In this document: piece by piece, positions 15,731-32,834 of the stretch
Layout: the number at the start of each line of letters is the position of its first letter
Numbering within the stretch: the stretch's first letter is position 1
DNA from: Candidatus Roizmanbacteria bacterium RIFCSPHIGHO2_12_FULL_37_23
Lineage (GTDB): Bacteria; Patescibacteriota; Microgenomatia; UBA1406; HO2-37-13b
Assembly (NCBI GenBank): GCA_001788095.1
Contig: MFZX01000043.1
Span: 1-43,338, forward strand
Direction: 5' to 3'
DNA: 43,338 nucleotides
Position numbers and translations under genes: made by a program
Notes under the pieces: model-generated
Databases searched by the model: none
What the model was told of the DNA's origin: nothing
The model's input: only the letters and a program-made list of their open reading frames with translations

Positions 15731-15760
15731 TTGACACTATCTGGACTATTGTAATACAAT
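15731..15760 (+). promoter_or_regulatory. Near-consensus promoter TTGACA-N18-TACAAT
   Basis: -35 TTGACA 15731-15736, -10 TACAAT 15755-15760, overlapping the ORF-track ATG at 15759. Confidence 0.55.
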
Positions 15761-17786
15761 GAAATATAAGCCCGAATTTATTTACCAGGTGACCTCAATT
15801 TCAGATATGCCGAAATCTTTAGTACTTGGTAACGGTACTGTATTGGTATGCCTAAATGCTGATGCTAATTTATCGGATTTTTACTTCCCTTATGTTGGGT
15901 TAGAAAACCACATAGGAGGACACTACAAGCATCGAATTGGTGTGTATGCTGATGGAAATATCCGTTGGTTCGGAGATCCGTCTTGGAAAATTGAAACAGA
16001 TTATATTGCAGACACGCTTGCTGGAATTACCAAAGCAGTAAATGACTTCCTTCAAGTCCAAATGACCGTTGAAGATGTTGTTTACAATGAAAAAAACATA
16101 TTTCTTCGCGAAGTAACGCTCAAAAACGTCTCTGATAGAGATCGCGAGATAAAAATTTACTTCCACCATCAATTTGAACTTTATGAATCCCATAGAGGTG
16201 ATACTGCATACTACGATCCTATCAAACGAATCATTATTCACTATAAAGGAAGGAGAATATTTCTCATAAATGCAGTTGCTGAGCATAGACAATTTGATGA
16301 TTACAGTATTGGACTATTTGAAATCGAAGGAAAAGAAGGGACACACAAAGATGCGGATGATGGTAAATTATCCAAAAATCCTGTTGAGCATGGACTAGTA
16401 GATTCTGTTATCGGTCTTACGCTGTTTCTAAAAGCAGGTCAAAAAACAACTATTAATTATTGGATGACTGCCTCAAAACATATGCACAGCGCATTTAGAC
16501 TGAATGAATATGTTCTAAAACGTACTCCTGAATATCTCATGCAAAGTACCAAAAACTTTTGGAAGGCCTGGACCAATAAACAAAATTTTTCATTCTACGG
16601 ACTCGATAACAATATTATTTCACTTTTTAAAAAATCTCTTCTGTGTATGCGTGCCCACGTTGGTAACAATGGTTCGATACTCGCGTCAGGAGATTCTGAC
16701 ATGCTCCAACATGGTAGAGATACATATAGTTATGTATGGCCAAGGGATGGCGCTCAAGTTGCTATTGGATTAGATAAGGCTGGTGATGTAAATGTCGCAA
16801 AACGATTTTTTGAATTTTGTAAAGATATTATTACAGAAGAAGGTTTTTTTATGCACAAATACCGATCAGATAAATCACTTGGGAGCTCATGGCATCCATG
16901 GCTGAGAAATGGACGTATAGCATTACCAATACAAGAAGATGAGACTGCATTAGTTGTTTATGCTTTATGGAAACACTACTACATAACTAAAGATATAGAA
17001 TTTATTGAGGAACTGTACAATCCAGTTATTAAAAAAGCCGCTGAATTCATGGTTGACTATCGTGATCCCAGTACCAAACTACCAAAGGCAAGCTATGATC
17101 TATGGGAAGAAAAATGGGGCACGCATACTTTCTCGTGTAGTGCCGTATATGGAGCGCTAAAAGCAGCATCTCGGATAGCATCTCTACTTGGAAAAAAGAA
17201 CAGTATGGATCGTTATAACGAAGCCGCAAATGAAGTCAAAGAAGCAATACTTCATCATCTTTGGGATCAAGAAAACAGGACTTTTCTTAAATCTGTAAAT
17301 ATTGATGGTGATCAAATGATTCCAGACAAAACTATTGATATGTCTAGTATTTATGGGATATTTAAATTTGGAGTTCTAGGTATAGAAGACGAACGCGTTA
17401 AACAAAATATTGAAGTAATCAAAGAGCGACTTTCTCCAAAGACAGAAGTAGGAGGCATTGCTAGGTATGAAGGTGACTATTATTACAGAAACACATCCGA
17501 TGTTCCTGGAAATCCATGGTTTATAACTACGCTTTGGTTAGCGCAATACTATATCGAAGTAGCTAAACAAGAAGCTGATTTAAATCCTGTTAAAGAAATT
17601 CTCAAATGGACTTCACAACATACATCCCGATCAGGGGTTTTATCTGAGCAGCTTGATCCACATTCTGGAGCACAAGTTTCAGCAGCCCCACTCACATGGA
17701 GCCATGCAGAATACGTGATTACAGTTATTGAATATCTAGAAAAACTTGAGCATATGGGAATTAGCAAAGTCTTTTATCCAATTTAA
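15759..17786 (+). CDS. Glycoside hydrolase family 15 (glucoamylase-like)
   Basis: PKSLVLGNGTVLVCLNADANLSDFYFPYVGLENH, YSYVWPRDGAQVAIGLDKAG, SYDLWEEKWGTHTFSCSAVYGAL. Confidence 0.92.
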   Translation: MKYKPEFIYQVTSISDMPKSLVLGNGTVLVCLNADANLSDFYFPYVGLENHIGGHYKHRIGVYADGNIRWFGDPSWKIETDYIADTLAGITKAVNDFLQVQMTVEDVVYNEKNIFLREVTLKNVSDRDREIKIYFHHQFELYESHRGDTAYYDPIKRIIIHYKGRRIFLINAVAEHRQFDDYSIGLFEIEGKEGTHKDADDGKLSKNPVEHGLVDSVIGLTLFLKAGQKTTINYWMTASKHMHSAFRLNEYVLKRTPEYLMQSTKNFWKAWTNKQNFSFYGLDNNIISLFKKSLLCMRAHVGNNGSILASGDSDMLQHGRDTYSYVWPRDGAQVAIGLDKAGDVNVAKRFFEFCKDIITEEGFFMHKYRSDKSLGSSWHPWLRNGRIALPIQEDETALVVYALWKHYYITKDIEFIEELYNPVIKKAAEFMVDYRDPSTKLPKASYDLWEEKWGTHTFSCSAVYGALKAASRIASLLGKKNSMDRYNEAANEVKEAILHHLWDQENRTFLKSVNIDGDQMIPDKTIDMSSIYGIFKFGVLGIEDERVKQNIEVIKERLSPKTEVGGIARYEGDYYYRNTSDVPGNPWFITTLWLAQYYIEVAKQEADLNPVKEILKWTSQHTSRSGVLSEQLDPHSGAQVSAAPLTWSHAEYVITVIEYLEKLEHMGISKVFYPI

Positions 17787-17788
17787 CT

Positions 17789-19006
17789 ATGAAAACACGT
17801 GTATTGATGTTTGGTTGGGAATTTCCTCCCTATAATAGTGGAGGGCTTGGGGTGGCTTGCCATGGTCTAACTAAGGCCTTGGTTTCACAGGATATTACAA
17901 TAACATTTGTCCTTCCAAAAAGAATGGGGCTGAAAGGAGATATTCCACATATTCTGTTTGCTGATGACGACATTCTTAATATTCATCAAATAGATACACT
18001 CCTATATCCATACATCACATCATCAAAATACATAGATGAGCGACAAAGCATTAAAGGTGGTTATGGTAAAAACCTCTTTGACGAAGTATACCGATATGCA
18101 CTCCATGCTCGAAGGATTGCTCAACAAGAACAATTCGATATTATTCATGCTCATGAATGGTTATCGTTTCCAGCTGGACTTGCTGCAAAAAGCGTAAGTG
18201 GAAAACCACTTATTGTTCATGTGCATGCTACTGAATATGATAGAAGTGGAGGAAATATCAATCCAATGGTATTCAATATAGAGTGGGAAGCACTCCAAAA
18301 AGCAGATGAAATTATTGCAGTTTCAGAATATACAAAACAAATAATAATTGACCAATACGGTATTTCTCCAAATAAAATCACCGTAGTTCATAATGGAGTA
18401 ACTCCTTTTGATGATAATAGACAACCTCTTATCGATAAACCTTTTAGCCTTGCTGAACTTAAACAATCTGGCGCTAAAATTGTCTTGTTTGTAGGAAGAC
18501 TCACGCTTCAAAAAGGACCTGATTATTTCCTGCAAGCAGCAAAAAAGGTCTTAGAATTTGAACCAAATACATATTTCTTGATTGCCGGATCTGGAGATAT
18601 GGAACGAGAACTTATTGAAAAAACAGCACAATTAGGCATATCTGATAAAGTTTTCTTCACGGGCTTTTTACGGGGAGAGGACTTGAAAAAGGTCTATCGT
18701 TCGGCAGACCTTTTCGTCCTCTCCTCGGTCTCCGAACCCTTTGGTATTACCACCTTAGAGTCTATGATCAATGGTACACCCGTTCTTGTGTCAAAGCAAT
18801 CAGGCGTTGCAGGAGCTTTACAACATGCTCTTAAAGTAGATTTCTGGGATATTGATGAAATGGCAAATAAAATGCTTGCCGTGCTTATGTATCGTCCTCT
18901 TATGCAAAGTTTGTCAGAAAATGGTTATCAAGAAGCACAAAAGTTCACATGGCAGCAAGCAGCAGAAAAGTGTATAAGGATATATGAAAGGCTAGTTAAA
19001 AATTAA
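17789..19006 (+). CDS. Glycosyltransferase (GT4/GT5-like, glycogen synthase-like)
   Basis: MFGWEFPPYNSGGLGVACHGL, HAHEWLSFPAG, LFVGRLTLQKGPDYFLQAA, SVSEPFGITTLESMINGTPVLVS. Confidence 0.92.
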   Translation: MKTRVLMFGWEFPPYNSGGLGVACHGLTKALVSQDITITFVLPKRMGLKGDIPHILFADDDILNIHQIDTLLYPYITSSKYIDERQSIKGGYGKNLFDEVYRYALHARRIAQQEQFDIIHAHEWLSFPAGLAAKSVSGKPLIVHVHATEYDRSGGNINPMVFNIEWEALQKADEIIAVSEYTKQIIIDQYGISPNKITVVHNGVTPFDDNRQPLIDKPFSLAELKQSGAKIVLFVGRLTLQKGPDYFLQAAKKVLEFEPNTYFLIAGSGDMERELIEKTAQLGISDKVFFTGFLRGEDLKKVYRSADLFVLSSVSEPFGITTLESMINGTPVLVSKQSGVAGALQHALKVDFWDIDEMANKMLAVLMYRPLMQSLSENGYQEAQKFTWQQAAEKCIRIYERLVKN

Positions 19007-19018
19007 GAAATATTTTTC

Positions 19019-20263
19019 ATGCCATCTGTTTGTCTATATTTTCAGGTTCATCAACCTCGACGATTGAAACAGTATCGTATTTTTGATATCGGAAAAGATC
19101 ATTCATATTTTAATGAAAAGAGTGAAACAAACAGAAATAATCAAGCAATTATTAAAAAAATAGCTCAAAAATGTTATCTTCCTGCAAATAAATTACTACT
19201 AAAATTGCTTAAAAAGTATCCTACATTTAGGATTACTTATTCTTTCTCCGGAGTTTTCCTCGATCAACTAGAAGAGTACTATCCAGAAGTTTTAAAATCC
19301 TTCCAAGAGCTTGTTGAAACCGGGCATGTCGAAATATTGTCTGAAACATATTATCATTCTCTTTCATTCCTCTACTCTGTTGACGAATTTATTCATCAAA
19401 TTAAATTACATTCTAAGAGGATTGAGGAAGTATTTGGAGTGAAGCCAAAAATTTTCCGAAATACAGAACTCATTTATAATAATGATATTGGAAAAATAGT
19501 AGGAAGTCTTGGTTATAAAGGAGTTCTCGCTGAAGGAGCAGATCACATTCTCCAGTGGCGGAGCCCAAACTACCTATATAAACATCCAGAGATTAATCTT
19601 CCTTTATTACTAAAAAATTACAAACTATCTGATGATATTGCATTCCGATTTTCTTCTAAAGATTGGCCCGAATATCCTTTAACAGCAGATAAATTTAGCC
19701 AATGGATAAGTGCGCTTCAAAATGAAGATATCGCATGTCTTTTTATGGATTATGAAACATTTGGAGAACATCAGTGGGAAGACACAGGTATCTTTAATTT
19801 TCTTGGTGCGCTACCTGAGGAAATTTTAAAAAATCAAAATATAGATTTCATAACTCCGTCTGAAGCAGTGAAACGATATAAACCCGTTGCAGAACTTGAT
19901 ATTCCTGAGTATGTATCATGGGCTGATACTGAACGTGATCTTTCCGCCTGGCTATCAAATCCTATGCAACACGATGCTGCCTTTAAACTTTATGCAATGG
20001 AAGAGGATGTTTTAGATAGTGGAGACAAACAACTTATAGAAGACTGGAGAAGATTACAAACATCTGATCATTTTTACTATATGTGTACGAAATGGTTTGC
20101 TGACGGAGATGTTCATAAATACTTTAATCCTTACGAATCACCTTATGAAGCATTTATTACATTTATGAATGTTTTAAAAGATCTCAAATTACGTCTTTCA
20201 AAAACCGACCAAATAATGATTGAGGATATTAAAGAAAAGCTCGTTCAATTAACAACAAATTAG
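19019..20263 (+). CDS. Glycoside hydrolase family 57 (alpha-amylase/glucanotransferase-like)
   Basis: VCLYFQVHQPRRLKQYRIFDIG, FRNTELIYNNDIGKIVGSLGYKGVLAEGADHIL, FMDYETFGEHQWEDTGIFNFLGALP. Confidence 0.92.
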   Translation: MPSVCLYFQVHQPRRLKQYRIFDIGKDHSYFNEKSETNRNNQAIIKKIAQKCYLPANKLLLKLLKKYPTFRITYSFSGVFLDQLEEYYPEVLKSFQELVETGHVEILSETYYHSLSFLYSVDEFIHQIKLHSKRIEEVFGVKPKIFRNTELIYNNDIGKIVGSLGYKGVLAEGADHILQWRSPNYLYKHPEINLPLLLKNYKLSDDIAFRFSSKDWPEYPLTADKFSQWISALQNEDIACLFMDYETFGEHQWEDTGIFNFLGALPEEILKNQNIDFITPSEAVKRYKPVAELDIPEYVSWADTERDLSAWLSNPMQHDAAFKLYAMEEDVLDSGDKQLIEDWRRLQTSDHFYYMCTKWFADGDVHKYFNPYESPYEAFITFMNVLKDLKLRLSKTDQIMIEDIKEKLVQLTTN

Positions 20264-24199: not shown

Positions 24200-24688
24200 T
24201 TAATATAATTCTGCATCAAAATGTAAAGATCTTTTTACTTGAAGTTTTGTATTTAAGATAAAGTATTCAAAATCAAAATGATTAAGCAACAGCTCTGGAG
24301 GAACAAGAAATAAGCTCGTTGCTAGTCCGTCTGCAAGAGTTGTATTTTCTGCAATAACCCATGTAGCCAAGATATCTTTTGGTGAATTGGATGTATCAGG
24401 ATCACCAGGTTTGTGCAATTTCAAAATGAATGAGTCTGAAATAAATCGAGAATAAAGCTCATCGAATTGTCTTGTCTTATCAATAATATTTTTACGAAGG
24501 TATTCAAAATTTTCTTCCGAGATATGGTCCCATATCTTAACGGTCCAAATAGTTCCCATTGATTCGTAGGAAAAAGGGAGCATGACTTAGCTTAAGTTTT
24601 CAGATTTCTGACTGTTTAAGAGTTGGACACCGGCGAAACCAATGATCGCAAGAGCAACAATGCCAATTGCGATATTTTTGGTATTCAT
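24200..24688 (-). pseudogene. ApbE (FAD:protein FMN transferase)-like gene: TM anchor, in-frame TAA, then N- and C-terminal ends without the core
   Basis: 24587-24688 encodes MNTKNIAIGIVALAIIGFAGVQLLNSQKSENLS*; same-frame ORF 24200-24583 encodes FSYESMGTIWTVKI...LYSRF joined to DPDTSNSPKDILATWVIAENTTLADGLATSLFL. Confidence 0.6.
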
Positions 24689-24727
24689 ATAGTAAAATGT
24701 TACTTGAAATAATATTTCATCTTCAAT

Positions 24728-25633
24728 ATGTTACCTGAAGTAAGAAAATTCTTCAATATTAGGAATCCACTCTTTCAATTTTTTCTCTATTTAGCTTTTT
24801 TTGTATTGATTGCACACCTTGATCTGCTCTTATTTTCAAAAAATTCTAGCGACCAACTAAGGTTTACTATCCAACTCATAACAATTTTAATAACAGGAAT
24901 ATTGTTATATATCGTCAGTGTATTAAAACTTAACTTCAGACATGCAAATCCACTGAACATTCTTATTTCATCAATGATTGTTTATATTCTAATACATCCA
25001 ACAAACCCTTGGATATTTTTCCCTCTTACGATTTTTTTCGCATGGATCGGAAAATATTTCATTAAATATAAAAATCTTCCCATGTTTAATCCAGCAGGGT
25101 TTGGCATATTCCTTACATATTATGTAACAACATTTCTTCAAAAAATTGGTGTTTCGAATGATGTCTTGCTTGTATCATGGTGGGGAGCCGATATGCAGCA
25201 ATACTTCCTTAATGAGATACCAATTTTTAACATGATGGTTTCCCTACTATTACTTTTTGGCTTCCTTTACTTTATACAGAAATATAATAAACACATTCTT
25301 GTCTCAACGTTTTTTGTTACTTTTTCGATTATTTTTTTACTTTATAACTTTTTTTTCCACATTACATTTCAAGAATCAATCAAAATCCTAAGTATGAATA
25401 TGTTTACTTCTTTTGCTTTTTTGATGCTTATTATGATCCCAGAACCCAAAACCTCTCCAAATTTATCAAAGCACCAAACGGTAATTGGTATATTAGGTGC
25501 TTCAGTTCTATTTTTTTTGACGTGGTATTTGCCTGATAAGTCACTTTTTACTCCAGGTCTTCCTTTTCTCACTACGCTACTTACTATGAATCTCTTCACT
25601 GTAGTACTCAAAGAAAAAAAACTGCTACAATAG
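24728..25633 (+). CDS. NqrB/RnfD-like integral membrane protein
   Basis: About nine TMs, MFNPAGFGIFLTYY, SWWGADM, MIPEPKTSPN. Confidence 0.65.
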   Translation: MLPEVRKFFNIRNPLFQFFLYLAFFVLIAHLDLLLFSKNSSDQLRFTIQLITILITGILLYIVSVLKLNFRHANPLNILISSMIVYILIHPTNPWIFFPLTIFFAWIGKYFIKYKNLPMFNPAGFGIFLTYYVTTFLQKIGVSNDVLLVSWWGADMQQYFLNEIPIFNMMVSLLLLFGFLYFIQKYNKHILVSTFFVTFSIIFLLYNFFFHITFQESIKILSMNMFTSFAFLMLIMIPEPKTSPNLSKHQTVIGILGASVLFFLTWYLPDKSLFTPGLPFLTTLLTMNLFTVVLKEKKLLQ

Positions 25634-25637
25634 CATC

Positions 25638-26939
25638 ATGCAAAAAAACAATGAAGAAGAACGTATTGTTGATCTTCATATTCACTCTCATTACTCTCGA
25701 GCTACAAGTAAAAATATGAATATTGAATCACTTTATCGCTGGGGAAAAATTAAAGGCATTGAGATTATGGGGACTGGTGATTTTACTCATCCTCAATGGT
25801 TTGCTGAACTTCGGAATAAATTAGAACCTGCTGAACCAGGTTTATTTAAATTAAAGAGCCAGTATGCTCAAGAGCAAGACGGATTGATACCTGAATCATG
25901 TAAGCAAAATTTAATGAGATTTGTATTAACAGTTGAAATCAGTAACATCTATTCAAAAAACGGATCGGTTCGTAAACTTCACAATCTTATTGTTGTCCCA
26001 AATTTTGAATCCGCATCGAGAATAAATGCCCAACTATCAAGAATTGGTAATTTACGAGCAGATGGTCGACCTATCTTAGGCATGGATAGCAAAAATCTAT
26101 TAAAAATTACTCTTGAAGCAGATCAAGATGCTTTGTTTATTCCAGCGCATATTTGGACTCCATGGTTTGCGATGTTTGGATCAAATTCAGGATTTGATTC
26201 GATTGAGGAGGCATTTGGAGAACTTTCTTCACATATCCACGCAGTAGAAACCGGTCTTTCTTCAGATCCATTTATGAATTGGCGTTTGTCACAACTTGAT
26301 AAAATTACCCTTGTGTCTAATTCTGATGCGCATTCACCTCAAAAACTCGCTCGCGAAGCAAATATTATAAAAAGCAAACTCGATTATTATGATATTGTAA
26401 ACGGACTTAAAACAAATGATGAACGGATTGTAGGTACAGTAGAGTTTTTTCCAGAAGAAGGTAAGTATCATTATGATGGTCATCGATTATGTGGAGTTCG
26501 ATGTACACCTCTTGAAACAGAAAAATATAATGGCTTATGTCCTGTATGTAAGCGTCCACTTGTTGTTGGAGTACAAAATCGAGTTAACAAGTTAGCGGAC
26601 CGACCATCAGACTATCGTCCAAAAACACACAAACTTGTGGAATACATTATTCCTTTGGTCGAAATTCTTTCAGAAATAAAAAATGTTAAAAGTACCGGTT
26701 CGAAAGCTGTAGAAGCTGAGTATGAAAAAGTCATTTCAGAGCATGGAAGTGAATTCGATATTCTTCGTAAAGTTCCAGTAGACGATCTTCACCACAATGG
26801 ATTTACTCAACTTGCTCATGCTCTTGCGAAAATGAGAAAAGGTGATGTACACGTCGAGCCGGGATATGATGGTGTGTTTGGAACTGTCAAGGTTTTTGGG
26901 GAAGAAAAATCTGAGAATGAACAATTGAAATTAATTTAG
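25638..26939 (+). CDS. Endonuclease Q-like PHP-domain nuclease
   Basis: DLHIHSHYSRATSKNM, GTGDFTHPQW, IPAHIWTPWFAMFGSNSGFDSIEEAFG, VSNSDAHSPQKLAREA, zinc cysteines LCGVRCTP...LCPVCKRPL, EYIIPLVEIL. Confidence 0.88.
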   Translation: MQKNNEEERIVDLHIHSHYSRATSKNMNIESLYRWGKIKGIEIMGTGDFTHPQWFAELRNKLEPAEPGLFKLKSQYAQEQDGLIPESCKQNLMRFVLTVEISNIYSKNGSVRKLHNLIVVPNFESASRINAQLSRIGNLRADGRPILGMDSKNLLKITLEADQDALFIPAHIWTPWFAMFGSNSGFDSIEEAFGELSSHIHAVETGLSSDPFMNWRLSQLDKITLVSNSDAHSPQKLAREANIIKSKLDYYDIVNGLKTNDERIVGTVEFFPEEGKYHYDGHRLCGVRCTPLETEKYNGLCPVCKRPLVVGVQNRVNKLADRPSDYRPKTHKLVEYIIPLVEILSEIKNVKSTGSKAVEAEYEKVISEHGSEFDILRKVPVDDLHHNGFTQLAHALAKMRKGDVHVEPGYDGVFGTVKVFGEEKSENEQLKLI

Positions 26940-26964
26940 TGAAATTCTAAACTCCTTTTTAGTT

Positions 26965-28752
26965 ATGACTTTCAAACATCTTAATACTTCACAGTTACGA
27001 GCTGTCCAAAGTACTGAAGGTCCTGTAATGATTATCGCTGGACCTGGAACAGGCAAAACTACAACTCTTATTGCAAGGCTTATGTACCTCATACATAACA
27101 AAAAAGTTAAACCACAAAACATTCTTGCTCTCACGTTCACAGAAAAAGCTTCTCAAGAAATTATAGACAGATTGCATATAAATCAACAAAAAAAACCGTG
27201 GGTTGGAACGTTTCACGCACTTGGTTATGAACTAATACCAAAGGAGAAAAATAAAAATCTTATTATAGTAACAGAAAGAAAAAGAAAAGAAATTCTTCGG
27301 AAGCTACGTTTGGAATATAAATTTAACAACATACCTCTTAGAGAATTACAACTTAAGGTCTCGAGATTTAAACAGACAGCATTGTTAAACCAACAAAAAA
27401 AATCTGATCTTTCAAATCTTATAGAAAAGTATAACCAATATCTTAAAAAAGAAAATTTATTTGATTATGATGATCTACTTATTGAGGCATACACATCAAC
27501 ACTAAAAGATCGCGGTACTCGAGAATCTCTCCAGAATCGATTTCACTATATCATGATCGATGAATTCCAAGACACTAATGAATTACAGTATGAACTTATT
27601 AAGCTTGTCGTCAATAATAATAGAAATATTTTTGTTATCGGAGATCCACTTCAGTCTATCTACTCATTCCAAGGAGCAGTGCCAAAAATCTTTGAAACGT
27701 TTAAAAAGGACTTTATAGGAACACATGAAATTTTTCTTGAAAAAAATTATCGCTCAGGTAAAAATATCATTCAGATAACATCTCAACTTTTTCCAGGTAT
27801 TCGAATCGCTCAATCTGAAACAGAGCATAATGGAAATACCTCAATAGTTCAAACATATAACGCAAAAACCGAAGCAGAATGGATACTATCATGTATTGAA
27901 AAGAGAATGGGAGGATCAGATCTCCTTCAAGCAAGTGATAATTCTGACGAAACTGATAAAAAAACTTCCTTCCGAAATTTTGCGGTATTATACAGAACTC
28001 ATCATCTCGGTAAAGTTATTCAGGAAGTATTTTCTGACTCAGGAATGCCATATCAGGTAGTCGGCGGAGGATCTCCGTTTGAACAAAAAGAAATACAGAT
28101 GATTATTCATACAATCCAGTTCCTCAATACACATAAGACCGAAAACCTTGAAAGCTTTAAAGAAAAAGAGAGAAATAAGATTAAGGGGTTCCATATTGAA
28201 CGAATAATAAACCTAACAGGTCTGATCGATCAAATTATCAAACTCTTAGACATTGAGAATATGGTGAAGAATAAACCTAGGAAAATAAATAATCTTCGCC
28301 ATTTTCTAAGTATGTGTCTTCATTATGACTCGTATAAAGATGGTCTTGAACAATTTTTATCTTATATTGATTTTCTAGAAAATAATGACTACTATGACAA
28401 ATCTAGCGAAAAAATAACGCTTTCAACTATGCACGCATCAAAAGGACTTGAATTTGACTATGTATTTATTTGTGGATTTGAGGAAGGAATAATTCCCTTT
28501 AAAAAAACAGCCTTAGATACTCAGAATTCAGACGAGGAGAAGCGTCTTCTCTATGTTGCTATGACGAGGGCTCGAAAAGAACTCTTTCTTCTGCATACGT
28601 TGAAAAGATTTAATCATAACAACAATGTCTCATTATTTTATAAACAGCTCAAGAATAGGTTACTTAAAGAAATCCGTGATGATAAAATTGACACTATTAG
28701 GAAAAACATACACAAGTGGAAACTTAAAAAAAGTCAACTCAAACTTTTCTAA
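26965..28752 (+). CDS. UvrD/PcrA/Rep-family SF1 DNA helicase
   Basis: LNTSQLRAVQSTEGPVMIIAGPGTGKTTTL, IDEFQDTNELQYELI, GDPLQSIYSFQGA, LSTMHASKGLEFDYVF, LLYVAMTRARKELFL. Confidence 0.95.
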   Translation: MTFKHLNTSQLRAVQSTEGPVMIIAGPGTGKTTTLIARLMYLIHNKKVKPQNILALTFTEKASQEIIDRLHINQQKKPWVGTFHALGYELIPKEKNKNLIIVTERKRKEILRKLRLEYKFNNIPLRELQLKVSRFKQTALLNQQKKSDLSNLIEKYNQYLKKENLFDYDDLLIEAYTSTLKDRGTRESLQNRFHYIMIDEFQDTNELQYELIKLVVNNNRNIFVIGDPLQSIYSFQGAVPKIFETFKKDFIGTHEIFLEKNYRSGKNIIQITSQLFPGIRIAQSETEHNGNTSIVQTYNAKTEAEWILSCIEKRMGGSDLLQASDNSDETDKKTSFRNFAVLYRTHHLGKVIQEVFSDSGMPYQVVGGGSPFEQKEIQMIIHTIQFLNTHKTENLESFKEKERNKIKGFHIERIINLTGLIDQIIKLLDIENMVKNKPRKINNLRHFLSMCLHYDSYKDGLEQFLSYIDFLENNDYYDKSSEKITLSTMHASKGLEFDYVFICGFEEGIIPFKKTALDTQNSDEEKRLLYVAMTRARKELFLLHTLKRFNHNNNVSLFYKQLKNRLLKEIRDDKIDTIRKNIHKWKLKKSQLKLF

Positions 28753-28848
28753 TCAGTTAGTTGCAGTTGAAGATCTTTGCCTGAACTATTATGATGTATA
28801 TAAACGTAGATTCCGGTTTAGATTTATTGTACAATTTCTTTGATTCAT

Positions 28849-29418
28849 ATGAATAATAGATTCACTTCTGACAATGTTCCGCCACCTAATAATCTTAAAA
28901 AAATTCTTATTATTGGTAGCACTGCTACACTCCTTGTTGTACTTGGAATTAGTACTTTTGTCGTACAGCGCGTACAAAAATCAGATACTCAAGCTATGCT
29001 TGAAGATCGGATCGCACAATGCCCATATCTTGTCACAGATTCATTAAGCTGTAGTAGAGATGGTGGTGAAATTATCAATACTGTAGACGCATCAGGATCG
29101 GGTGATGGGACTACCATCCTTGTTTGTTGTCGATTAGCTCCTTCACCAACTCCTTTTGCTTGTCCAGAAGATTCTATTCTTTTACCCACGGATCAATGCC
29201 TGCCGGAAAATATCATACCAATTGAACCTATTGAACCTCCTACTGATGGTGGTGATATACAACCTGGTATGGTGTGTTGTCGACCAAAAAGTTCACCGAC
29301 TCCACCCGAGCTTGAAGGCCCTACAGATACACCTACTCCAACACCCCTTGTATGCAAAGAACCACCACCACCAAATATTACTAATTTAAACATTACTTGT
29401 CCTGAATGCGTACCATGA
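28849..29418 (+). CDS. TM-anchored Cys/Pro-rich surface protein
   Basis: KKILIIGSTATLLVVLGISTFVVQRV then Cys-rich domain with PTDTPTPTP. Confidence 0.7.
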   Translation: MNNRFTSDNVPPPNNLKKILIIGSTATLLVVLGISTFVVQRVQKSDTQAMLEDRIAQCPYLVTDSLSCSRDGGEIINTVDASGSGDGTTILVCCRLAPSPTPFACPEDSILLPTDQCLPENIIPIEPIEPPTDGGDIQPGMVCCRPKSSPTPPELEGPTDTPTPTPLVCKEPPPPNITNLNITCPECVP

Positions 29419-30854
29419 GTAGATTTTCCCGTTTTACAGAAGAATACGATATAAAAAAAATTGCTCTCACATTGGGAGCTTTTGTGATAATTACTCTTGG
29501 TTCAATCGCAGGTATTCAAGTCCTTCGGAATAATTTAGATATTCGTGAACAAGCAGCAGGACCTTCATGCCCAAGTGGAACTGGCTTATTAACTTGTTCC
29601 TTTGATGTGGAATCTTCGGGTCAAACTTTCGAATACAAAGTTGTGTTTTCCGTGTTTGACGAAGATGGAAATTTGATAATGCAAATCCCTAGTGATCCGA
29701 AAATTATTAACGATTCTGAGAGAATACACCATGTTGTTGAATCTAAACAAGTTCCTATCAATTTTAAGTACAAATGTGATGTTGAAGTAACATATAAAAA
29801 AGTTTGTACACCTGATACAGGAATAATCAGACAGTCTACGGAGATTAGTTGTCCTGTTGAAAATCCCCCTACCTCAACTCCCGCAACAAATCCAACCTTA
29901 ACACCATCGCCAACTCCTTTTCGTCGAACTGGCGTAGAATGCTCTAAGTGTTCGCAACTTCAAGTGACAGTAGATTTAACGACTATTCCCCCCCCTCCTA
30001 AATTTCCACCAAATATAGATGAACCTGGTCTAAAGATTGGCCGCGTCAAACTTGCTTCATCAAGCGCGGATTGTCCAGGGGGTATAAATTGCGATAACAT
30101 AGATCTTAAATGGGTAGCGTTTGCTGGACCTTCTTGTGGAAATGTCAATGATGATACGAGCATAGTTATCCCAACTCCCCCTGATAGATTAGACATAAGT
30201 TGTGCTGAAGCAACGGGGCCAGACGGAGCAGTTTTCAGACTCCATCAGGCTGTTGAGGATGGGTGCCGATGTTATCAACTTCGACTTGATATAAATGGTG
30301 AAAACGATCCACCGGTCTGTCCAAATCCAGAAGAATTAAGAGTATGTTGTCCTCTACGATGCGCGCCACCACAAATCATTGATGATCCTAATAATCCAGA
30401 TGATAACTGTGATGGTGATCCAGATGGGCCAAATCCAAACGTACCCGCAGCAGATCAATGCTACTTTGACCTTACAGAACCTAACGCATGTCCTATCTTA
30501 AAAAAAGAAGCTCAATTTAGAACACAAATCGGATCGAATCTTGGAACAGGAGAAATAGAATTTGATGATGATTTTAAAGAAAGTAATAAGCAGGTACAAA
30601 ACGGCACTGATGATCCTACATATACATATAATGATGCTGGAGTATACGACGTAGAACTTCGATGTAAAAACTCAGCTGGAAATGATAAAACGTGTAAAAA
30701 GCGCATCACCGTAACGTGCGAAAGTGGCGGCGGGGGTGGTGGTGGAGGCGGCGGTGGAGGTGGTGGAGGTAGTGGAACACCAAGACCGAGCCCAAGTAAT
30801 ACACCACCATTTTGCCCATTACAAGATCAGACCGTAACAGGAATATGTCAATAA
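29415..30854 (+). CDS. TM-anchored surface protein with PKD-like domain and polyglycine tract
   Basis: N-terminal TM; DPTYTYNDAGVYDVELRCKNSAGNDKTCKKRITVTCESGGGGG...; start at 29415 overlaps upstream stop as ATGA. Confidence 0.75.
   Translation: MSRFSRFTEEYDIKKIALTLGAFVIITLGSIAGIQVLRNNLDIREQAAGPSCPSGTGLLTCSFDVESSGQTFEYKVVFSVFDEDGNLIMQIPSDPKIINDSERIHHVVESKQVPINFKYKCDVEVTYKKVCTPDTGIIRQSTEISCPVENPPTSTPATNPTLTPSPTPFRRTGVECSKCSQLQVTVDLTTIPPPPKFPPNIDEPGLKIGRVKLASSSADCPGGINCDNIDLKWVAFAGPSCGNVNDDTSIVIPTPPDRLDISCAEATGPDGAVFRLHQAVEDGCRCYQLRLDINGENDPPVCPNPEELRVCCPLRCAPPQIIDDPNNPDDNCDGDPDGPNPNVPAADQCYFDLTEPNACPILKKEAQFRTQIGSNLGTGEIEFDDDFKESNKQVQNGTDDPTYTYNDAGVYDVELRCKNSAGNDKTCKKRITVTCESGGGGGGGGGGGGGGGSGTPRPSPSNTPPFCPLQDQTVTGICQ
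30722..30777 (+). repeat. GGN triplet tract encoding polyglycine
   Basis: ggcggcgggggtggtggtggaggcggcggtggaggtggtggaggtagtgg. Confidence 0.9.
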
Positions 30855-32131
30855 ATGAACGTAAAAAAAATATTTTAGTCGCATTTACACTACTAGTCCT
30901 TGGAGTTGGGATTATCGCAGGTTTATTTTTAGTACGACAACGTCAACTTATTAAAAAAGAAGCTGCTATTCCTGAAGGTCGAACAATAACATGTTCTTGG
31001 GAAATTGACGGAACGTATGAAGTAAGTGTTGTCGATAGTCAAGGCAATACTATCTTAGGTCCCGAAACTGTAACCGGAACATCCTTTACTTTTATTAATG
31101 TTGATACTACTTCACTTCCCGATCCTGTTTTTTGCCAAATAAATACCATTGGTGCATCAACGGCTTGTGTACCAATACGTAGTGGTCCTATTTCTTGTCC
31201 TATTCCTCCCGAAGTAACAGACACACCAACACCAACTCCAGAACTTCCCGGCTGTTATCAAACCTGTGGTACCGGAGTACCTTCTTGTCAGCCTGGTTTA
31301 GGCTGTGTATATCCGGGGGGTGAAGCCTGTGATCAGGGAGGAGAAGGATGTTACTGCTTTAGTGAAGCTCTTTGTGATATAACGCCAACTACCACACCAA
31401 CACTGACTTCTACCCCAACGCTGACAAGCACACCAACGCCGACACTTACGCCGACTGCCACACCAACACTACCTCCTGGCGTTACACCAACATCTACACC
31501 ACCTATTACACCAACAAGAACACCAACTCCTACATCGACTCCAACACGCACTCCTACGCCAACACCAACACCAATTAGCTGTCCATTACCTGACGCTGTA
31601 GAAAATCTTGCACTCAGCTGTGATCCTGGACGATGTTCGTGGGAGGGAGTTTCTGGAGTTTCTGCATATAAGGTAAATGTTGTTGATGATACAACAGGAC
31701 TTTCTATATACGAAAATGGGTTTATTCGCACATTAAATACACAGGTTACATTCACTGTTCAAGCAAATCACGCATATAAATGCTATGTAGAATCAGAGAA
31801 CTCTTGTGGCTCCAGTCCTGCAGAAGGATCAGATCTGTGCACACTTGTTGTGCCAACAGATACACCAACACCAAGCAAAACCCCACCACCGACAAGCACA
31901 CCAAAACCAACAAGCATAGCTGGTCCTACAAGTACTCCAACAAAAACATTGACACCGACAGGTACGTTTATCGCTCAAGAAGATACACCAACACCAGTAA
32001 AAGGGTTGTCACCAACCACAACACCGTTCCCAACCTTACCAGTTGCCGGAATATCGCAAAGACTATTATTCACTGTTATCACAATAGGTGCTCTTATCGC
32101 AATCGGAATAGGATTGTTCTTACCATACTAA
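30845..32131 (+). CDS. Surface protein with TPTPT linkers and C-terminal LPVAG + hydrophobic tail
   Basis: N-terminal TM, extended Thr-Pro repeats, [34 protein letters not shown]. Confidence 0.75.
31380..31575 (+). repeat. Degenerate ACACCAACN low-complexity tract encoding Thr-Pro repeats
   Basis: acaccaacactgacttctaccccaacgctgacaagcacaccaacgccg... Confidence 0.85.
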
Positions 32132-32174
32132 ACTTCATACGCATTCTTCGTACTCTTCGTGTTACCATGATAAT

Positions 32175-32834
32175 ATGGATCTTACCTTTCAGAAAATTGT
32201 AATAGGAATTGTAGGATTTCTTATCGCGCTCAACCTTGTAATTCTCGATATTGAAGTGTTACGAGAATCCCCAAATCCGACTATTCAAACGATTGTGCAA
32301 AAAACCCTTCCTATGCCAACGCAGGTTCCACAACCGACAACTATCCAATCACTTATAAAAACTTCGCAAACATGTTCTCCATCATGTATAGATCTGATTC
32401 AAGAAGCAACTGCTTCATTAAAATTGGATAAAACTACAACAACACAAACCAATACGTCTCCTTCGACAGCTAAAGAATTCTTTATATCTATGGGTTCAGG
32501 ATCTACGTCAGCAGGAGATTGGGAAGATGTAAATGGTCTTCAGGCATATGTTGATACTACTCAATATAACGGCATAAAATCTGCTATTTTTGAAGCTTCT
32601 GTACGCGTACCTACAAAAAATCAATGGGTTGATGTAAGGCTGTATAATGTGACGGACAAACATCCTGTATGGTTTTCTGAGGTGAGGTTTCCAGGTGGAA
32701 GTGATCCAAAATTGATAAGATCTGAAACAATGGTTCTTGATCCAGGAAGTAAACTCTTACAAGTACAAATGAGAACTCAGCTAAGACACATTGCCTATCT
32801 CGATCAGTCAAGAATCGTGATCACAACGTATTGA
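32175..32834 (+). CDS. TM-anchored hypothetical exported protein
   Basis: N-terminal TM, Thr/Pro linker, beta-rich C-terminal domain. Confidence 0.65.
   Translation: MDLTFQKIVIGIVGFLIALNLVILDIEVLRESPNPTIQTIVQKTLPMPTQVPQPTTIQSLIKTSQTCSPSCIDLIQEATASLKLDKTTTTQTNTSPSTAKEFFISMGSGSTSAGDWEDVNGLQAYVDTTQYNGIKSAIFEASVRVPTKNQWVDVRLYNVTDKHPVWFSEVRFPGGSDPKLIRSETMVLDPGSKLLQVQMRTQLRHIAYLDQSRIVITTY

Follow-up and report, generated by a model that had tools for sequence, protein, structure and literature searches.

The window analysed here, the whole stretch of 43,338 nucleotides of contig MFZX01000043.1 from Candidatus Roizmanbacteria bacterium RIFCSPHIGHO2_12_FULL_37_23, encodes a homologue of endonuclease Q (EndoQ) followed on the same strand by a helicase of the UvrD family, each ending in a peptide that resembles a binding motif for the beta sliding clamp, DnaN (Table 1). 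A scan of the gap between the two genes found no terminator-like site, and co-transcription, inferred from sequence alone, is likely.

Table 1. Features of the EndoQ-helicase locus (positions in the window)
Feature	Position	Strand	Remarks
EndoQ homologue	25638..26939	+	433 aa; PHP catalytic domain, zinc-ribbon-like insert, C-terminal domain; ends ...KSENEQLKLI
EndoQ-linked UvrD-family (SF1A) helicase	26965..28752	+	595 aa; ends ...LKKSQLKLF
Codons of EndoQ terminal clamp-binding-like motif QLKLI	26922..26936	+	stop codon directly after
Codons of helicase terminal motif QLKLF (predicted clamp-binding)	28735..28749	+	stop codon directly after
Gap between EndoQ and helicase genes	26940..26964	.	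exactly 25 nt; from sequence and terminator scan

Upstream of the pair (24200-25633), a short ApbE-like open reading frame (127 aa, matching only the C-terminal part of the profile) lies divergent from the gene of a 301-aa membrane protein without a Pfam match; the two may be a flavinylation-related pair. Downstream (28840-32834) are three or four consecutive proteins, possibly related surface proteins, that share a membrane segment at the N-terminus and linkers rich in Pro, Thr and Ser; one of them has a weak PKD-like match. Genome G001, of the same family, has a membrane protein of similar look to the 301-aa one near its EndoQ gene, and genes resembling the downstream proteins after it. Farther off (15759-20263), a GH15-like glucoamylase, a GT4-type glycosyltransferase and a GH57 glycoside hydrolase are encoded consecutively, which suggests a glycogen or starch-type module.

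The first gene of the pair encodes a full EndoQ homologue. Residues 12-421 align to the Pyrococcus furiosus enzyme (PfuEndoQ, 5zb8, E 5.4e-43 by phmmer; 5zb8 and 7k30 both at E about 1e-42), and an AlphaFold model built from 17 homologues (pLDDT 87, pTM 0.88) has the same two structures as its top PDB matches in Foldseek (E 5e-31, TM about 0.8), 7k30 being a complex of EndoQ with dU-containing DNA. The protein thus has the full-length match and the fold, with PHP domain and zinc-ribbon region, that mark the family. H14, H16, E100, H115, H171, D230 and H232 align with the PHP metal-ligand residues of the Pfu enzyme and, on family knowledge, we take them to be metal ligands; all except H14 are invariant in the 17-homologue alignment. 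Several EndoQs of a distant group have Gln (DLQxHSK) at position 14, where the PHP HxH motif has its first His. H282, C285, C301 and C304 align with the four zinc-ribbon Cys of the Pfu enzyme, the first being a Cys-to-His replacement. With the NCBIfam model TIGR00375 the protein scores 161 bits (E 5e-47), short of the equivalog cut-off of 326.6, and the fused homologues described below score 170-182 bits; it is therefore classed as an EndoQ homologue and not as a TIGR00375 equivalog. Cleavage 5' of dU, dI and AP sites is inferred.

The second product has both UvrD domains, N-terminal (PF00580, 2e-66) and C-terminal (PF13361, 3e-45), and the motifs GPGTGKT, DEFQD, GDPLQSIY, NYRS, TMHASKGLEF and AMTRAR. 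With the PcrA model TIGR01073 it reaches 340 bits and the PcrA-like protein of the same genome 644, both short of the equivalog cut-offs of PcrA, UvrD or Rep (911-1168 bits), the window helicase scoring at most 340 with any of them. A tree of 11 rows, all taken from related genomes, sets the EndoQ-associated helicases, whether paired or fused, apart from housekeeping UvrD/PcrA with support 100; in a tree of 20 rows that includes diverse phyla, the two kinds separate with 2 label changes, with weak deep nodes and one odd helicase (L209) inside the EndoQ-linked group. Furthermore, of nine genomes that carry a fusion or a pair, eight have an EndoQ-linked helicase that matches the window helicase better than their housekeeping one does. 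A generic UvrD duplicate was rejected on the strength of the trees, this comparison of matches in nine genomes and the fusions.

The initial annotation had described an EndoQ-like PHP nuclease and a UvrD-family helicase, 25 nt apart, with tails that resemble clamp-binding motifs, the helicase tail being the classic QLxLF and that of EndoQ a near variant. Re-reading of the sequence confirmed both genes, both tails and the spacing exactly; the nuclease assignment held through the 5zb8/7k30 alignment and fold match, the helicase assignment through the two Pfam domains, and the reading of the tails at the level of sequence. QLxLF is the highest-affinity clamp consensus, and QPLLI of MutL, with Ile at the last position, also binds the clamp (PMC11139829). 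QLKLF of the helicase fits the clamp-client consensus Q-aliphatic-x-[L/M]-[F/L] fully, and QLKLI of EndoQ fits it except for Ile at position 5.

These tails are not chance occurrences, which genome-wide pattern searches and counts in background open reading frames rule out. Codons for Q-L-K-L-[I/F]-stop occur at just two sites in the 1,093,306-base assembly, the ends of the EndoQ and helicase genes, and the reversed control pattern at none. The strict terminal pattern was found in 0 of 352 other neighbourhood open reading frames of 100 aa or more, and a looser pattern, allowed anywhere in the last 14 residues, in 16 of the 352; the four background matches of one tail count each turned out to be the paired helicase of a relative. 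In the 17 aligned EndoQ homologues Q429 is invariant although the linker before it is variable, and all complete proteins of the distant EndoQ group end in a Q-x-x-L-F-like peptide after a linker highly variable in sequence and length. Among 91 complete unfused bacterial EndoQs, 84 have a clamp-motif tail: 77 are pentameric by the loose pattern and 7 are hexameric (such as QMSLGL, QLSLEI and QMGLDF), a form which the terminal pattern undercounts and which was added by hand; a few unfused EndoQs lack any clamp motif (L079, L102, L120, L143). Linked helicases carry such a tail in 16 of 19 cases (QLTLL, QMKLF, QMELF, QLKMF, QSSLF, QTKLF, QISLF, QLKFF, QLKLF, QMGLF, QMTLF and others), compared with 0 of 11 housekeeping UvrDs. 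Of the three without it, one lies on a cut contig, one is a mis-called open reading frame and one has a frameshift that leaves its motif, QMKLF, in another frame. In the helicase gene of genome G022 (L031 8500-8720) an apparent frameshift has removed the tail, and QMKLF-stop is present in another frame.

The EndoQ tail has low confidence in the AlphaFold model (pLDDT 51-55); low confidence is expected for a short linear motif. The window's genome encodes a DnaN that retains TDGFRL and IMPLR, which we take to match the E. coli clamp pocket around residues 172-177 and 362-365. Both proteins are thus predicted clients of the beta sliding clamp, binding itself being inferred in the absence of binding data.

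EndoQ was found in 38 of 57 related genomes. Wherever the DNA downstream of a close EndoQ homologue could be read, a helicase gene followed directly or after one small gene (11 of 11 loci: the window, G022, G031, G030, G047, G012, G214, G273, G123, G266 and G296). At one of these (G030, L033 35-8811) the pair comes after genes resembling, by eye, MutS, MutL and PanC. Genome G001, with similar flanking genes, has no helicase at this place and keeps the EndoQ tail (QLHIF), and the other EndoQ group in the class has no linked helicase and likewise keeps the tail; the helicase is therefore not obligatory for EndoQ. In the distant group (L038-L067), the next gene after EndoQ, close to it or overlapping, usually encodes a polytopic membrane protein of about 400-430 aa with an O-antigen-ligase-like look, and the gene of a small exported protein often comes next, along with an HU-like gene; this is a conserved neighbourhood without the helicase.

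In many other bacteria the two enzymes form one protein. Among 80 named loci, chosen as the best-scoring by EndoQ alignment and not as a random sample, there are at least 43 clear EndoQ-helicase fusions, three more that are cut or frameshifted, eight with an adjacent helicase and 26 with none nearby; the EndoQ homologues of this set include Patescibacteria records. The fused proteins, mostly about 1030-1180 aa long, occur in records of Thermodesulfobacteriota, Myxococcota, Gemmatimonadota, Chloroflexota, Planctomycetota, Actinomycetota, Binatota, Pseudomonadota, Elusimicrobiota, Bacteroidota, Bacillota, KSB1 and Latescibacterota, and named isolates with the single-protein form include Desulfonema magnum, Dactylosporangium siamense, Asanoa siamensis and Actinoallomurus soli. 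A terminal clamp motif is present in 38 of the 39 fusions with a complete C-terminus, and a second motif (QKSLF, QKYLF, QDALF and others) lies at the junction, within 25 residues after the EndoQ core, in 25 of 42 scored fusions compared with 30 of 1060 background windows. Thus, the fusions have the same layout as the split pair of the window: enzyme, clamp peptide, motor, clamp peptide. Fusion is the strongest evidence for a partnership of EndoQ and helicase, and supports it. The initial annotation, which had named conservation of the tails and of helicase adjacency among homologues as its check, is borne out on both counts, the tails being kept where the linker before them is not and the adjacency in all 11 close homologues; it was made without knowledge of the fusions, which add support to the pair from other phyla.

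The distribution of EndoQ is complementary to that of uracil-DNA glycosylase (UDG), counted as the UDG superfamily. Across 281 genomes of the class, 61 have both, 92 only EndoQ, 110 only UDG and 18 neither (odds ratio 0.11, Fisher p 9e-16), so that 263 hold at least one. With counts given in the order both/EndoQ only/UDG only/neither, the pattern recurs among the 57 nearer genomes (7/31/15/4, p 2e-5) and inside a single family (5/14/8/0, p 6e-4) and a single genus (0/8/3/2, p 0.03); genomes of 90% or more completeness show it too (6/23/13/1, p 8e-6). These p-values ignore shared ancestry and hence are inflated, an objection that the switches within family and genus answer in part. Ogt (PF01035), a repair gene taken as control, is distributed independently of EndoQ among the 57 nearer genomes (odds ratio 1.0); an artefact of genome quality was rejected, because the trade-off persists at 90% or more completeness and is absent for Ogt. 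Where UDGs are weak-scoring and possibly family-1-like, EndoQ occurs alongside in just 7 of 35 genomes. No UDG was detectable in the window's genome, and endonuclease V (EndoV) was detected in none of the 57 genomes, the window's included, by a model that detects the E. coli and B. subtilis controls. In archaea the distributions of EndoQ and UDG are reported not to be associated (PMC6202378), and the trade-off could hence be a peculiarity of these bacteria.

Taken together, what the sequence shows is the families of the two enzymes, their adjacency or fusion, their tails, the presence of a clamp gene and the lack of detectable UDG and EndoV; activity, clamp binding, direction, order of steps and all coupling are inferred. 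On this basis the pair is likely to act on deaminated bases as a repair unit that nicks and unwinds DNA while tethered to the clamp. EndoQ would recognize uracil, hypoxanthine or an AP site and nick the strand just 5' of the lesion, as is established for the archaeal and Bacillus pumilus enzymes (PMC6202378), leaving a 3'-OH and, at the 5' end of the nick, the lesion. EndoQ and helicase would each hold DnaN through a C-terminal QLxL[F/I] peptide. UvrD-type motors are 3'-5', and the polarity of the window helicase is taken from its family; this SF1A motor would enter at the nick, travel along the intact template strand and displace the lesion-bearing 5' end in the direction of polymerase extension. 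A polymerase, likewise bound to the clamp, would fill in behind it from the 3'-OH, and flap trimming and ligation would complete the repair. The clamp would be a natural meeting place, and the fused proteins, often with a motif after each enzyme, might fill the two pockets of a dimeric clamp at once. For the lineage of the window, such a unit would stand in for base excision repair started by UDG. The scheme proposed in the initial annotation, nicking at a deaminated base and unwinding by the helicase with both proteins tethered to DnaN, is thereby supported, the tethering by the tails and the pocket signatures of DnaN; DnaN binding, base specificity and unwinding are inferred. Against this reading stand the variant Ile in the EndoQ motif, the EndoQs without a linked helicase (in G001 and in the other group of the class) and the 61 of 281 genomes that hold both EndoQ and UDG. 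A bolder version, which we regard as no more probable than its opposite, is that split and fused forms are one widespread bacterial excision machine, its two peptides seated in both pockets of one DnaN ring so that nicking and strand displacement are coupled on one clamp; this machine would replace glycosylase-based uracil repair in bacteria that lack UDG.

The alternative that survives best, though it is unlikely, is that EndoQ repairs alone and that the helicase is a general UvrD/PcrA paralogue which shares its operon and its replisome address without any joint reaction. In its favour, the second EndoQ group in the class has the tail and no linked helicase, the helicase is missing at the same place in G001, and clamp motifs are common to many proteins. 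Against it, EndoQ and helicase are fused into one protein across many phyla, and linked helicases separate from housekeeping ones in trees, the window helicase resembling the EndoQ-linked helicase more than UvrD/PcrA of the same genome in 8 of 9 cases. That the pair acts mainly on AP sites or another lesion, such as ribonucleotides or mismatches, with deaminated bases secondary, is very doubtful: EndoQ does cleave AP sites as well (PMC6202378), and MutS-, MutL- and PanC-like genes precede the locus in G030, but the gene whose presence and absence trade off against those of EndoQ is UDG, not the control Ogt. An anti-phage system, a Gabija-like nuclease and UvrD helicase directed against phage DNA with uracil or other modified bases, is likewise highly improbable and was rejected, since, although the helicase matches many GajB profiles in PADLOC, the layout resembles Gabija and uracil-DNA phages exist, GajB matches are expected of any UvrD, EndoQ matches no PADLOC model, searches of 50,697 phage records and 72,556 plasmids, and of viral contigs within the reach of the patterns used, returned no EndoQ, none of the neighbouring genes seen was noticed to be a defence gene, and the complementarity with UDG points to housekeeping repair.

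The clamp-tethered repair unit therefore remains the preferred reading. Bacterial EndoQ and its clamp motif are already published, the motif having been predicted in 2016 (PMC4858679); the helicase partner, the fusion, the double motif and the complementarity with UDG are apparently new. No paper on these four was found in the literature searched, which did not cover most subscription papers, and novelty is not proven. A review states that repair of EndoQ nicks remains elusive and merely assumes an unnamed helicase (PMC8438529); the pair names a candidate for this gap, backed by gene fusions, and suggests how many small-genome bacteria handle cytosine deamination without UDG, and the single-protein versions in named isolates make the pathway testable.

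Comparison with known systems places the pair as follows. EndoQ of Thermococcales (Pyrococcus furiosus PF1551, T. kodakarensis TK0887) shares the fold over nearly the whole length and likewise ends in a sliding-clamp peptide, in that case a PIP box that binds PCNA (KD 55 nM), by which the enzyme is stimulated (PMC4858679), in agreement with the initial annotation's statement that the archaeal enzyme works with PCNA. In contrast, the window enzyme has a beta-clamp peptide instead of a PIP box and HxxC instead of CxxC as its first two zinc-ribbon ligands, and it and its relatives have a UvrD-type helicase as a partner or as part of the same protein, an arrangement of which we found no description for the enzymes of archaea. 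The bacterial enzymes previously reported (B. pumilus, 2017; B. subtilis and Desulfovibrio homologues, 2016) share the C-terminal beta-clamp consensus predicted in PMC4858679, and that of B. pumilus nicks 5' of U, Hx, X and AP sites (cited in PMC6202378). Gabija (GajA nuclease and GajB helicase) is also a nuclease-helicase pair with a UvrD-type motor, but membership, which takes a GajA-type nuclease beside GajB, is not met, the neighbouring nuclease being a PHP-type EndoQ without a PADLOC match, in no visible defence context and with no mobile carriage seen. PcrA and UvrD share with the window helicase the SF1A UvrD-family core with all its motifs, whereas the window helicase belongs to a separate branch and carries a clamp motif where PcrA and UvrD have an RNA-polymerase-binding C-terminal region (PMC3797733).
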